This document shows positions 7,174 to 27,154 of a stretch of 33,126 nt of DNA, piece by piece (position 1 is the first letter of the stretch; the number at the start of each line of letters is the position of its first letter). Source of the DNA: Parcubacteria group bacterium 21-54-25 (lineage in GTDB: Bacteria; Patescibacteriota; Minisyncoccia; Phycocordibacterales; Phycocordibacteraceae); NCBI GenBank assembly GCA_002255585.1, contig NCBJ01000009.1:1-33126 (forward strand), read 5' to 3'. The notes below the pieces were generated by a model, which was given only the letters and a program-made list of their open reading frames with translations, was not told the DNA's origin and made no database searches. The translations under genes and the position numbers were made by a program.

Positions 7174-8100
7174 TCAAACAGTGAGGTATCGTCGGATAGC
7201 GAGGAAACTTGCTGCGCCGCCGAGCACGAGACCCGAGCCAAAAAGTATCAAGAAAATGAGCCCGAGATTGTCAACGTAGTACGTGAAGAAATTAAACCCG
7301 CCAAACCAGTCCGTAGTCATTTGCCCCACATACCACGAGGCGGGGAGGAGGAGCAAAAGCACCACGGCAGCGGCGATAAGCCCCGCGATGACACCGGCCA
7401 CGATAAATGGCCCCCGAATATAGGCATTCGATGCGCCTACGAGCCGCATGACGGCAATTTCGTCACGCGACGTGTAAATCGCAAGTCGAATTGTTGCGAA
7501 AGCAATGGTCACCGAAGCAAGCGCAAAAAGCAGCACGATTGCCGCGCCTACTTGCTGCACTGTATGCATGGCAAACGAGAGTCGATCAATAACGGTTTTG
7601 TTTTGCTGATAGTTGACTCGATCGATAATAGACACCCCGCTGGCAGAAAGCGCCGGCCCTGTGCTAAGAAAATTTGCGATACTGCTGTATTGTGAAGGGT
7701 CTTTTGCTTGGATAGAAAGCGAGGCGTCGAGCGGGTTAGTACCGAGTTCGTCGAGTGCCTGGAGCGTCAGCTGATCGTTTGCGTGCCGCGCACGAAAATC
7801 CGCAAGCGCCTGGTCACGTGATGTGTAGGTAATTGAGGCAACCTGCGGCAGCTGCTCGAGCCGGTGCTTGAGCGCAAGGATGTCGCTCGACGCCGCGGTG
7901 GTTACGAAATACACGCTGATGTCCACTTTGTTGCGAATCGTGACGAGTGTGTAGTTCAAAAGTCCCGATAGGAAAATGAGCGCGGCGATGATACCGAGGG
8001 TCACGGTCATAATAAGCACGGTTGCAAAAGAAACCGCACCGCTACGCACGAAATTTTTCGCTCCTCCGATGCTCACTCGACGAATTGCAGTCCAATGCAT
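7174..8100 (-). CDS. ftsX: Cell division protein FtsX
   Basis: A 308-residue permease-like protein with one N-terminal membrane segment (about 22-46), an external domain (about 48-175, with VDISVYF and the LPQVASITYTSRDQAL segment) and three C-terminal segments, the FtsX layout. With FtsE it forms a complex that does not transport but activates peptidoglycan hydrolases at the division site. The family motif VMRLVGAS is present at about 217-224. Start: ATG at 8100 (MHWTAIRR). It begins 7 nt after the ftsE stop, and a consensus TATAAT (8112-8107) that overlaps that stop ends six nt before this ATG, so ftsX may also have its own promoter. A plausible wall-enzyme partner is the coiled-coil transglycosylase at 25031-26434. 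Confidence 0.93.
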   Translation of the reverse strand: MHWTAIRRVSIGGAKNFVRSGAVSFATVLIMTVTLGIIAALIFLSGLLNYTLVTIRNKVDISVYFVTTAASSDILALKHRLEQLPQVASITYTSRDQALADFRARHANDQLTLQALDELGTNPLDASLSIQAKDPSQYSSIANFLSTGPALSASGVSIIDRVNYQQNKTVIDRLSFAMHTVQQVGAAIVLLFALASVTIAFATIRLAIYTSRDEIAVMRLVGASNAYIRGPFIVAGVIAGLIAAAVVLLLLLPASWYVGQMTTDWFGGFNFFTYYVDNLGLIFLILFGSGLVLGGAASFLAIRRYLTV

Positions 8101-8106
8101 ATCTCT

Positions 8107-8112
8107 ATTATA
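8107..8112 (-). promoter_or_regulatory. -10 box for ftsX-pyrG, overlapping the ftsE stop
   Basis: TATAAT, perfect consensus. Its last four bases on the minus strand (TAAT) contain the ftsE stop TAA. It ends 6 nt before the ftsX ATG. Confidence 0.5.
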
Positions 8113-8791
8113 AAACATACTGCCCCTGCACGTCGTCGCGCACAACGCGGCCGCGATCCATCGTGATGACACGGCGGCCCACAGAGTCCACGACCCCTTT
8201 ATTGTGCGTCGTAATTAAAATAGTTGTACCAAGTTCGTTAATTTTCTTTAGAATTTGCACAATCTCATACGTATTGACGGGATCAAGGTTTCCCGTCGGC
8301 TCATCAGCCACAATGACGTCGGGCTGATTGATGATGGCACGACCAATTGCAACGCGTTGCTGCTCGCCGCCGGAGAGCTGGTGCGGAAAGTGGTTCGTTT
8401 TTTCGGCGAGGTCAACCAGTTCAAGAATATGCGGTACGTCTGAGGCAATTTCGTCATCGGGACGCCCGGCCGCCTCCATCGCGAACGCAATATTCTCGTA
8501 TGCGGTCTTGTGCGGAATGAGACGAAAATCCTGAAAGACCATACCAATTTTCCGCCGATAGTGGTACAGCGCGGAGCTCGGTAGTTCGTGTACGTTTACC
8601 GATTCAAAAAAAATAGTGCCGCTTGTCGGCCGCTCTTCTGCAAGAAGCGTTTTAAGAAGTGTCGTCTTCCCCGCTCCTGAGTGCCCCACAATAGAAATGA
8701 ATTCTTTGGGTGCGATGGAAAGCGTTACGTCTTCTAGTGCGGGAACCTCATCACCGTTGTAGATCTTCGAAACCTTCTCGAAATAAATCAT
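8108..8791 (-). CDS. ftsE: Cell division ATP-binding protein FtsE
   Basis: A 227-residue ABC ATPase (E. coli FtsE: 222). Walker A GHSGAGKT (36-43), FQDFRLIPHKTAYENIAF (86-103, the FtsE-type Q-loop), signature LSGGEQQR (139-146), Walker B VIVADEPTGNLD (159-170) and H-loop TTHNKG (194-199). FQDFRL and TAYENIAF distinguish FtsE from LolD. It powers FtsX in controlling septal wall hydrolysis. Start: ATG at 8791 (MIYFEKVSKIYNG); the frame upstream has no family similarity. TACAAT (8805-8800) ends eight nt before the ATG. First gene of ftsE-ftsX-pyrG. Confidence 0.96.
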   Translation of the reverse strand: MIYFEKVSKIYNGDEVPALEDVTLSIAPKEFISIVGHSGAGKTTLLKTLLAEERPTSGTIFFESVNVHELPSSALYHYRRKIGMVFQDFRLIPHKTAYENIAFAMEAAGRPDDEIASDVPHILELVDLAEKTNHFPHQLSGGEQQRVAIGRAIINQPDVIVADEPTGNLDPVNTYEIVQILKKINELGTTILITTHNKGVVDSVGRRVITMDRGRVVRDDVQGQYVL

Positions 8792-23664: not shown

Positions 23665-24624
23665 TCAGCCTATCGGACTATCGGTGTGTGCGATATCCGC
23701 CATGCCGGTTGCCAGTGCGGTTTGAAGCGACTCAATGATGGGATCAAGCCCCCCGGCAAGGATTTTAGGTAGGTTGTGCCAAGACTCCTTGAGACGATGG
23801 TCCGTAACACGGTCCTGGAGAAAATTATATGTGCGAATCTTTTCAGACCGGTCGCCCGTACCTATTTGTGCCTTGCGCGTCTCGGCATGCTTCTTAGCCT
23901 CTCCTTCTTCAGTAAACTGCTCGATTTTCGCCGTCAAAATCTGGAGTGCTTTCTCGCGATTAGCCTGCTGGGAGCGCTCGGAGGATGAGCGCACGTCGAT
24001 ACCCGTTGGCTTGTGGACAAGGCGCACTGCCGTCTCAACCTTGTTCACATTCTGGCCACCGGCGCCGCCTGAACGTGAGAACTCCATCTCGAGATCAGAC
24101 GGATTGATGACAATGGTCGATTTCGTGCGAATTGGCATTGCCGCGATTGAGGCGGTCGAGGTGTGAATGCGTCCAGACTTTTCGGTGGCGGGAACGCGCT
24201 GTACACGATGCACGCCGGTCTCCCACCGAAGTGCCTCGTATGCATCCGCCCCAACAATCTCGAGTGTCAGCTCGTCAATAGCGCGCACGTGCCACCCTTT
24301 GTTTTGGGCATATTGCTGATACATGTCGCGCAGATCTTTTGCGAAAAGCGTCGCCTCGTCGCCGCCCGCGCCCGCGCGAAACTCAAGCACGATGGCAGTA
24401 GGTTGCTCGGCTTCTTCTTCACGCGCGATGATGCGATAGATTTCAGTAAGAAGTTCCTGCTGTCGCGCGTCGACGCGAGCGACGTCTTCTGCCGCCATTG
24501 CGGCGAGGTCTGGGTCGCGCGCAGCTGCGTCCTGCGCAGATGCCTTCTCGACTTCGAGACGTTCATACTCACCCGCGAGAAATGCGGTCGCATGATTTTT
24601 CTTGAACTCTGGTGAATACTCCAT
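23665..24624 (-). CDS. prfA: Peptide chain release factor 1
   Basis: A 319-residue RF1 that recognises UAA and UAG. The stop-recognition PAT (145-147, in [16 protein letters not shown]) separates it from RF2, and GGQ is at 189-191. Domain 1 is shorter than in E. coli RF1 (360), with about 80 residues before the [11 protein letters not shown] segment, but much better kept than in the RF2 of this window. Start: ATG at 24624. The upstream region has TACAAT and TATACT about 20-30 nt before the ATG, so a short leader is likely. It is preceded by the rpmE hairpin. Confidence 0.95.
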
Positions 24625-24706: not shown

Positions 24707-24964
24707 TTACGCCTTGCGTTTTGCTGCGGCCACGCGCTGTTTGAAGCGCTCTACTCGTCCTGTTTTATCGAGTGTACGATCCTCACCAGTATAAAACGGA
24801 TGCGATTTGCTTGAGATTTCCACGATTACTTTCGGATACTCCTTACCATCGACGGTTACCGTCTCATCGGTGGCAATCGTCGACCCGATGATAAACGTTT
24901 CTCCCGAGGCAATGTCCTCGAAGGCCACTGGGCGATAGTTTTTAGGATGAATATCCTTCTTCAT
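24707..24964 (-). CDS. rpmE2: 50S ribosomal protein L31, type B (no cysteines)
   Basis: An 85-residue L31. [17 protein letters not shown] at the start, the SKSHPFYTG motif (about 52-60) and a basic tail ([16 protein letters not shown]) are typical of the type B form, which lacks the zinc-binding cysteines of type A. In many bacteria type B replaces type A under zinc shortage; whether a type A copy exists here is unknown. Start: ATG at 24964, with TGC-TATAGT (24977-24972) ending seven nt upstream. Confidence 0.93.
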
Positions 24965-25030: not shown

Positions 25031-26434
25031 CTATGACCCATTTAGCTGGTCAATCATCTGTTGGAACTGGTCAGCGTACCCCATCACGCCGTCCCCATAG
25101 AACGCATACGCCGGGTTGCCTGCGTGTGTCCAGCCAGCAAAGTACCGTAGGGCAGCGAGACGCTCGGCAGCGCGTGTGCCTGCGGCAGCGCCGTTATCGG
25201 CCATCAACATGGCGGCGGCCATAAACGCATCCTGATCATCCCAGGGATTCGATGGACTGTTGCCGCCGGTGAGCGTGCGCACACGATCCTTGCTTGCGAC
25301 ATATTGCCACGGCCCCTGCCAAAACGCATTCCATGACATCGTATGCTGGCTATTGTTGCAGTCGCCTGTATTGACGTTAATAAAGCCGCCATAACATACC
25401 CACGTCGAAGGGATAAATTGCCCCGGGCCCATAGCACCACCCCAACCATACGAAGGCTTCCGTGAGACAGGCATGGTGTTCGGATCTAGACCAAGTGTCT
25501 TAGTGATGTACACAAAGACCGGTTGGTCGCGATTGGGCGCCATATCTACTTTCCAATTTCCCGTGCCAAGGTTTTGGCCAAGGTCCGTTTCCTGTTTGAG
25601 GACGCCGAGGATAACCGCTGCGCGTACGCCAGTCGCTTTTTGCGCCGTCTCAGCATATTGCAACGCCTTGCCAAAAGGAATTGCTGCCGAGTCACGCAGT
25701 GAGAAAAGTTCGGAGCGAATCTGTGCAGCGGATTTCTGCTGTGAGTTAAGTAGCGATTGGTATGCGCCCTCTTTCCCTTTAGTCTGTGAAAGTATGGTTC
25801 TTTTCTGCTGTTCTTGCTGCTGAATCTGTCGCTGCTCAAGCACCTGTATTTGCTTCAGCTGCTGCTGTTGCGCAAGCTGGTCCTCGAGCGCTTGTTTTTC
25901 TGTCTCTGTCTGTGTACGCGTGCTGGTAAGATCGGTAAATGATTGCGCGAGGGCCTGTTTAATCGAAGCGAAGGCATCGAGGTCTTGAAAAAACGATGAG
26001 ACATTCTGCGACGAAAGTGCAACGTCAACCGTCGAGTAGCCGTCGATGACCTGCGTTTGCCGCAAAATTTGTGCGAGAGATTCTTGCTCTTTTGAAAGCT
26101 GGGTATTGAGCGCGCCGATGGTCTGGGTATGAATATCAATATTTGATGAGAGCTGCTCGATTGCTATTTCCGTTGCCTGCACCTGCAGTTTTGCTTTTTT
26201 AATCTGCGTGTCGAGGATATCAATATCACGTTGTAGTGATTCGTGCTGTGAATGAAGTGTATCGAGCGTCGTCTGGCTTTGGTTGATCTGGCTTTCAAGC
26301 GCAGAGAGCTGTGACTGCAGTTGTGCGCGTCGAGTGGAAACCGCAACCGTTGTAGATGCTGTTTGTGCAAAGAGCGCGCTCGGAACAATGAGCACTGTGG
26401 CGAGCACTATTACCAAGCTGGTACGTAACCGCAT
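25031..26434 (-). CDS. Secreted coiled-coil lytic transglycosylase (PcsB/CwlO-like N-domain)
   Basis: A 467-residue protein: signal peptide (1 to about 23, cleavage near LFA-QT), a long coiled coil (about 32-245, very Gln-rich at 180-215) and a C-terminal transglycosylase domain. The coiled coil contains TVDVALSSQNVSSFFQDLDA (135-154), resembling the segment that marks the hydrolase-activator and PcsB/CwlO coiled coils regulated by FtsEX. The catalytic part has Glu282 in VLKQETDLG and GAMGPGQFIPSTW (333-345), the MltB/Slt35 signature, so it should cleave peptidoglycan glycan strands. In known PcsB/CwlO proteins the catalytic domain is a peptidase, so this combination is unusual. Start: ATG at 26434, nine nt after TGC-TATACT. 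Confidence 0.88.
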   Translation of the reverse strand: MRLRTSLVIVLATVLIVPSALFAQTASTTVAVSTRRAQLQSQLSALESQINQSQTTLDTLHSQHESLQRDIDILDTQIKKAKLQVQATEIAIEQLSSNIDIHTQTIGALNTQLSKEQESLAQILRQTQVIDGYSTVDVALSSQNVSSFFQDLDAFASIKQALAQSFTDLTSTRTQTETEKQALEDQLAQQQQLKQIQVLEQRQIQQQEQQKRTILSQTKGKEGAYQSLLNSQQKSAAQIRSELFSLRDSAAIPFGKALQYAETAQKATGVRAAVILGVLKQETDLGQNLGTGNWKVDMAPNRDQPVFVYITKTLGLDPNTMPVSRKPSYGWGGAMGPGQFIPSTWVCYGGFINVNTGDCNNSQHTMSWNAFWQGPWQYVASKDRVRTLTGGNSPSNPWDDQDAFMAAAMLMADNGAAAGTRAAERLAALRYFAGWTHAGNPAYAFYGDGVMGYADQFQQMIDQLNGS

Positions 26435-26500: not shown

Positions 26501-27154
26501 CTATTTTTCACTTGACGGTGCGGCTGATTGGTCTTCTTCTTGCTTGCCTTTCTTTTCTACTTCGATTGCTTCCATATCTGGCGTCTCGGTAACCACCTCT
26601 ATTTCCTCCTGCACTTCCTGGACGAGTACGATGACCTCTTCGGGGTCACTCTTGAGCACGACGCCTTTCGGGAGTGCAATATCGCGTACATGAATCTGGT
26701 CGTTAATGTTTGCAAGCACTGAAATATCAACCGAAATCTCATGCGGCAAGTCGGCCGCCGCCGCCTCGATCTCAATCTCATGGAGCACCTTTACCAAATT
26801 CGCACCTGCTTTTACCGCAGGCGACTCGCCCGCAAAGACAAGCGGCACCGCCACCTCGACTTTTGCGCCTTTTTCAATCGCGTAGAAATCAACGTGCCGC
26901 GGGATGCTCGTAATAGGGTCGTGGTCCACGTCGTGAATAAGCACAGAAAGCGGCTGGTTGGAAATGCCGGCAAGCGCCACCACAGAAGATTCACCCGCTT
27001 CTTTAAGTACCTTCTCAAACTCTTTGAGAGAAAGTGTGATGGGCGTAGCTTCCTGTTTGGGACCATAGACGACCGCGGGCATACGCGCGGCCGCGCGGAG
27101 CGCTTTCATCCGTTTGCCGAACACTTCTCGCTTCTCTGCTGTGAGAGTCAACAT
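26501..27154 (-). CDS. rplY: 50S ribosomal protein L25 (CTC type)
   Basis: A 217-residue L25 of the general-stress (CTC) type that binds 5S rRNA. The N-terminal domain (1 to about 92) has EKREVFGKRMKALRAA and MPAVVYGP; the beta-rich C-domain (about 93-180) has VEVAVPLVFAGESPAVKAGA and the LPHEISVDIS segment. An acidic, low-complexity tail (about 180-217) follows. Start: ATG at 27154, with TAGACT (27166-27161) ending six nt upstream. No Shine-Dalgarno site. It is followed by a strong hairpin. Confidence 0.94.
   Translation of the reverse strand: MLTLTAEKREVFGKRMKALRAAARMPAVVYGPKQEATPITLSLKEFEKVLKEAGESSVVALAGISNQPLSVLIHDVDHDPITSIPRHVDFYAIEKGAKVEVAVPLVFAGESPAVKAGANLVKVLHEIEIEAAAADLPHEISVDISVLANINDQIHVRDIALPKGVVLKSDPEEVIVLVQEVQEEIEVVTETPDMEAIEVEKKGKQEEDQSAAPSSEK

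Follow-up and report, generated by a model that had tools for sequence, protein, structure and literature searches.

In the literature consulted, the described effectors of FtsEX, namely EnvC, PcsB, CwlO and RipC, all target the peptide part of the cell wall, either directly or through amidases. In the FtsEX-EnvC systems of E. coli and V. cholerae (6tpi, 8tzl), an N-terminal antiparallel coiled-coil hairpin with a tip loop is combined with a LytM domain that is itself inactive and serves to activate amidases, and EnvC residues 114-128 and 141-160, on two sides of the coil tip, contact FtsX (PMC7668044). PcsB, CwlO and RipC combine a coil with a peptide-cutting CHAP or NlpC/P60 domain in one secreted protein. 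The NlpC/P60 enzyme RipA likewise pairs a hydrolase with a coil, one able to block the active site, but it does not use FtsEX and serves another partner (PMC9897464). The lysozyme-like MltB fold, with its catalytic Glu motif and GAMG..QF.P motif, is represented by MltB, SltB1 and Slt35.

The window analyzed here, meaning the whole stretch of 33,126 nucleotides, encodes a protein with likenesses to each of these groups. Like EnvC, it has at its N-terminus an antiparallel coil hairpin with a loop at the tip, and an FtsX external domain is present in the same genome, but in place of an inactive LytM domain it carries an apparently active transglycosylase. As in PcsB, CwlO and RipC, a coil and a cutting domain are united in one protein predicted to be secreted, whereas the domain would cut glycan strands rather than peptides. 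In general, it has the exported coil hairpin of the FtsEX coil-hydrolase effectors and lacks their peptidase or amidase-activator domain; its gene lies away from ftsEX (adjacency is common, not obligatory), and the CC_PcsB profile does not match it. The fold and both motifs of MltB, SltB1 and Slt35 are present, unlike in those enzymes behind a coil, without a lipobox, and with scores under the SLT_2 and MltB curated cut-offs. Other Patescibacteria proteins (coil-M23, coil-C39 and coil-CHAP) have a homologous coil, whereas their domains are peptidases, and those with M23 and CHAP are encoded directly behind ftsX in several lineages. A search of the open-licence literature returned no report of a coil-transglycosylase, or of FtsEX effectors in Patescibacteria.

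The fusion gene (25031-26434, (-) strand, as are all features of the window given here by coordinate) encodes 467 amino acids in the open reading frame translation. A signal-peptide-like N-terminus read from the sequence (residues 1-24, MRLRTSLVIVLATVLIVPSALFAQ; 26363-26434), in which inspection found no lipobox cysteine, is followed by a coiled-coil hairpin recognized in the AF2 model and by hhalign (approximately residues 30-250; 25685-26347) and then by the catalytic part; secretion is predicted. The AF2 model, built from a 26-sequence alignment, has a mean pLDDT of 79.7 and a pTM of 0.55, with helices at residues 20-131 and 145-245 separated by a loop, a very short linker of about 8 residues between coil and catalytic domain, and a pLDDT mostly near 90 in the latter. 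The architecture is not a chance product, since the protein (P0001) is matched in all 59 relatives searched, some 20 of the matches spanning practically its entire length; the catalytic part is missing from the match list in three genomes (G001, G006 and G051), and a fragment alone is seen in G040. One relative of about 563 amino acids (L028:949-2637 (-)) has a PG_binding_1 domain inserted within the catalytic part.

Structure and profile matches assign residues 252-467 (25034-25681) to an MltB-fold, GH103-like lytic transglycosylase domain. The modelled catalytic part superimposes on SltB1 (4anr; Z 14.7, 2.2 Å over 160 residues) and on Slt35 (1qus; Z 13.7, approximately 2.1-2.2 Å over 160 residues), and the family profile (A4) matched SltB/MltB chains alone in the PDB, at E values of 3e-5 to 7e-4. 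In the profile alignment Glu282 (25589-25591), the putative catalytic acid, which lies within 'KQETDLG', stands opposite the Glu of the SltB1 motif 'GVETFFG'; it is invariant in 26 relatives, as is the GGAMG..QF.P.TW core, the corresponding motif being GAMGPGQFIPSTW in the fusion (residues 333-345; 25400-25438), as read from its translation and the relatives. Single-sequence matches are weak: SLT_2 gives an E value of 0.0018 and 18 bits against a curated cut-off of 24.3, the NCBIfam MltB score of 19.2 is below the curated cut-off of 281.4, and PF13406 alone does not detect the fusion in the window's genome. However, SLT_2 is matched at 0.01 or better by 15 of the 26 relatives, the best at 4e-9. 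The catalytic part is apparently an MltB-fold lytic transglycosylase, and a putatively active one, as judged from its sequence and model.

Because unrelated coils also score high Z values with long helical models, we judged the relatedness of the coil by sequence profiles rather than by Z. The fusion coil aligns with the ftsX-adjacent coils at 99.7% in hhalign over 216 columns, and this homology extends over the whole length, tip included. Its likeness to EnvC is visible in PRK11637 (E 2e-6, far below the equivalog cut-off) and in Foldseek, where the top match is EnvC 8tzl and 6tpi is also found, with generic coils mixed among the rows. Pfam CC_PcsB does not match the window protein at E≤1 or any of the 26 members at 0.01; coil-C39 (0.038) and several ftsX-adjacent coils (6e-6 to 0.002) do match, at scores below its curated cut-off. 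An initial annotation, made from the sequence alone, had described a PcsB/CwlO-like coil fused to an MltB-type domain, and this is borne out by the homology to EnvC and ftsX-linked coils together with the MltB fold and the invariant Glu282.

The coil tip (residues 117-162; 25949-26086) is positioned like the EnvC segments gripped by FtsX, with fusion residues 117-131 and 143-162 occupying, in the coil alignment (A9), the place that corresponds to the EnvC-FtsX interface; SSQNVSSFFQDLDAF is residues 142-156 of the coil. These tip segments rank third among 174 same-shape coil positions for conservation in the order-level set and 30th of 174 class-wide. The tip remains recognizable in fusions from genomes without an FtsX match, and the E-Y pair that is invariant in ftsX-adjacent coils is replaced by D-x-F in most fusions of the window's order. 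Comparison of tips revealed no clear FtsX-binding signature in the genomes with the fusion as sole detected coil protein. The tip sequence is thus compatible with FtsX docking, short of proof.

The ftsEX genes noted in the initial annotation are genuine. The ftsX gene (7174-8100; FtsX_ECD 1.2e-16, FtsX 7e-11, NF038347 3e-53) and ftsE (8108-8791; TIGR02673 7.7e-79) lie after prfB and before pyrG, 17 kb from the fusion. By synteny, the fusion has its own conserved surroundings, with a bL25-like gene (rplY, 26501-27154) upstream, a bL31-like gene (rpmE, 24707-24964) downstream and then prfA (23665-24624), and this rplY-fusion-rpmE-prfA locus recurs across the window's class. Among approximately 60 fusion loci read, none has the fusion adjoining ftsEX. 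Since the two loci have separate neighbors and are 17 kb apart, their presence in one window is no evidence of a functional link.

Elsewhere in Patescibacteria, canonical blocks of ftsEX and a coil-peptidase (M23 or CHAP) exist, and often. In 12 ftsX loci from other families the gene directly behind ftsX encodes a coil-M23 protein (10/12) or a coil-CHAP protein followed by coil-M23 (2/12), proportions that are not a rate because the loci were chosen for closeness of the FtsX and A2 matches. In two loci, L153 (G098) and L154 (G169), ftsEX is followed by coil-CHAP and coil-M23, such that several coil-hydrolases stand in tandem behind one ftsEX; L153 additionally encodes a coil protein whose end resembles C39.

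The window's own genome encodes exactly three coil proteins by a mixed coil profile: the fusion, a coil-M23 protein and a coil-C39 protein. The coil-M23 gene, on C5, adjoins gltX, murG, ftsW and mraY; its product matches M23 at 2e-28, and its putative metal site (H320, D324, H379, H410 and H412) is invariant in ten relatives, while its AF2 model (pLDDT 73.7, pTM 0.43) is too weak for comparing domain arrangements. The coil-C39 protein, encoded on C11, matches Peptidase_C39_2 at 8e-5, just under the cut-off, and its residues C311, H387 and D403 are invariant in four relatives. Among the 68 genomes of the genus, 8 have C39 without M23 and 3 have both, counts inferred from coil-only A2 matches, with the C39 domain confirmed in the loci read. 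Coil-C39 takes the usual coil-M23 slot after gltX in four of the genomes with C39 only, as it does in G052, which belongs to the same order; in G008 coil-C39 and coil-M23 lie side by side at the gltX end of the ftsW-murG cluster, which looks like a replacement caught midway (loci L138-L141, L244 and L036). A further M23 protein without an A9-type coil (L265:1899-3092 (-), G000 C17; L266:765-1937 (+), G030) is picked up through its M23 domain in the majority of the genus genomes examined, among them G030, which lacks an FtsX match.

A survey of 381 Patescibacteria genomes, made by searches together with reading of chosen loci, places the fusion within a wider FtsX distribution. FtsX_ECD is present in 357 of them, whereas the catalytic domain of the fusion has a strong match (E < 1e-8) in just 66, with 17 further weak matches that are probably other transglycosylases; a strong match is absent from about 290 FtsX-positive genomes. 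A2 matches occur in 363 of the 381, a count in which M23 domains standing alone and other coils are included. The proposal that these bacteria generally rely on a transglycosylase for what a peptidase does in others therefore does not hold, given this restricted distribution and the common ftsEX-coil-peptidase blocks. Within the window's class the co-occurrence of FtsX and the fusion that had been anticipated is complete (each 33/33), although it does not extend to the larger set; no coil-peptidase was detected in 9 of these 33 genomes, and the other 24 encode coil-M23 (one of the 24 genes is interrupted by a contig end). Outside the class, G089 and G201 have FtsX and a strong fusion match, with A2 matches that are short or weak, and are possible further fusion-only cases.

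At the genus level presence and absence prove no link of FtsX with either type of protein (FtsX versus coil-peptidase, p 0.08; FtsX versus fusion, p 0.32; 68 genomes). An FtsX match is missing in six genomes, five of which keep the fusion, including G030, G450 and G451, whose assemblies comprise 1-6 contigs. We considered G030, with neither FtsX nor a coil-peptidase, as a decisive case and dropped it, because G450 and G451 retain coil-M23 besides the fusion despite a missing FtsX match. In G451, compared with its sisters, neither gene shows relaxed selection, though saturation of dS makes the comparison uninformative.

In the nine class genomes without a full-length coil-M23 (G225, G320, G369 and G412 among them), the mixed coil profile gives one clear match each, and this is the fusion; the remaining matches are at 4e-4 or worse, and the same search applied to the window's genome recovers the fusion, coil-M23 and coil-C39. 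These genomes are 99-100% complete, and five are assembled in 3-10 contigs. All nine retain the FtsX external domain (FtsX_ECD E 3e-13 to 3e-18), and the ftsX neighborhoods of G369 and G320 contain no recognized coil gene. On a tree built from the fusion proteins, as a stand-in for a species tree, the fusion-only state requires three changes, and the well-supported branches also force three. Together, the nine genomes and the tree indicate that on at least three occasions FtsEX was retained where the fusion is the sole coil protein detected; the coil-peptidase has been lost independently at least three times with FtsX retained. The fusion-only genomes are the best support for a connection between FtsEX and the fusion, although it is indirect, depends on profile detection, and leaves other duties of FtsEX conceivable.

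The reading we tentatively favor, at slightly less than even odds, is that the fusion is one of a set of interchangeable Patescibacteria coil-hydrolases and is plausibly controlled by FtsEX, being redundant here and possibly the sole effector elsewhere. The fusion would be a secreted lytic transglycosylase borne on a PcsB/EnvC-type coiled-coil hairpin, from a coil set that comprises M23, C39 and CHAP proteins, joined in the window's class, as in some other lineages, by the MltB-type transglycosylase. The coil would hold the transglycosylase inactive or tethered. With the tip gripped by the FtsX external domain, ATPase cycling of FtsE would free the enzyme at the division site so that glycan strands are cut. 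The window's genome may then have as many as three coil effectors, the fusion among them, and at least three related lineages the fusion alone. We rank this slightly ahead of a RipA-like role apart from FtsEX, a somewhat less probable and still serious contender, in which FtsEX acts on coil-M23, coil-C39 or both and the fusion is a separate housekeeping transglycosylase whose coil is auto-inhibitory or binds a different membrane protein, in the manner of RipA and Cg1604 in the Corynebacteriales. Such independence would fit the coil-M23 or coil-CHAP genes directly behind ftsX at the twelve loci of other lineages, the coil-M23 gene in the ftsW-murG cluster of the window's order with coil-C39 replacing it there, the fusion's own conserved rplY-prfA locus, its persistence in genomes without an FtsX match and the RipA precedent (PMC9897464). 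It is harder to reconcile with nine near-complete FtsX-positive genomes, in three lineages, that have no other coil protein detected, where FtsEX would be partnerless or would use something undetected.

Partnerless FtsEX is itself an explanation to be weighed: were FtsEX in the fusion-only genomes to work without any coil-hydrolase, in divisome assembly only, its co-presence with the fusion would be uninformative. There are 13 or 14 genomes without any A2 match that still have FtsX, and FtsX loss shows a modest association with A2 absence (4-5/18 A2-negative versus 19-20/363 A2-positive genomes; p 0.02 or 0.003 according to the state of one unlisted genome, without correction for kinship). However, absence in those 13-14 genomes is by A2 and not by the broader coil profile, and all nine fusion-only genomes keep the FtsX external domain, so that we regard this as improbable. 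Many Patescibacteria live as epibionts on other bacteria, and this habit, with the predicted secretion, could point to a host or prey cell wall as the target rather than the cell's own septum. That target seems more improbable still, given that the fusion is found in all 33 surveyed class genomes within a housekeeping gene block and has no repeat, adhesion or secretion modules, bar the PG_binding_1 insert in one relative.

The initial interpretation is thus partly supported. The suggestion that the fusion is the FtsEX effector is weakened in the window's genome, where coil-M23 and coil-C39 provide the standard type of coil partner whose presence had been named as refuting it, and gains from the nine near-complete fusion-only genomes. 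FtsEX may be able to use the fusion, a claim that can now be put to the test, and the fusion-only genomes are a clean place in which to examine FtsEX control of a transglycosylase. Patescibacteria join one coil type to four kinds of cutting domain, with one replaced by another at the same locus. It is quite possible, if a shade less so than FtsEX control itself, that in at least three lineages of the class a lytic transglycosylase, borne on a coil of the same type, has taken over from the peptidase as FtsEX effector, with the ATP-driven switch of division directly gating glycan-strand cleavage there. If true, and since the described effectors are all on the peptide side, a glycan cutter on this type of coil would mean that the switch works irrespective of which bond is cleaved.
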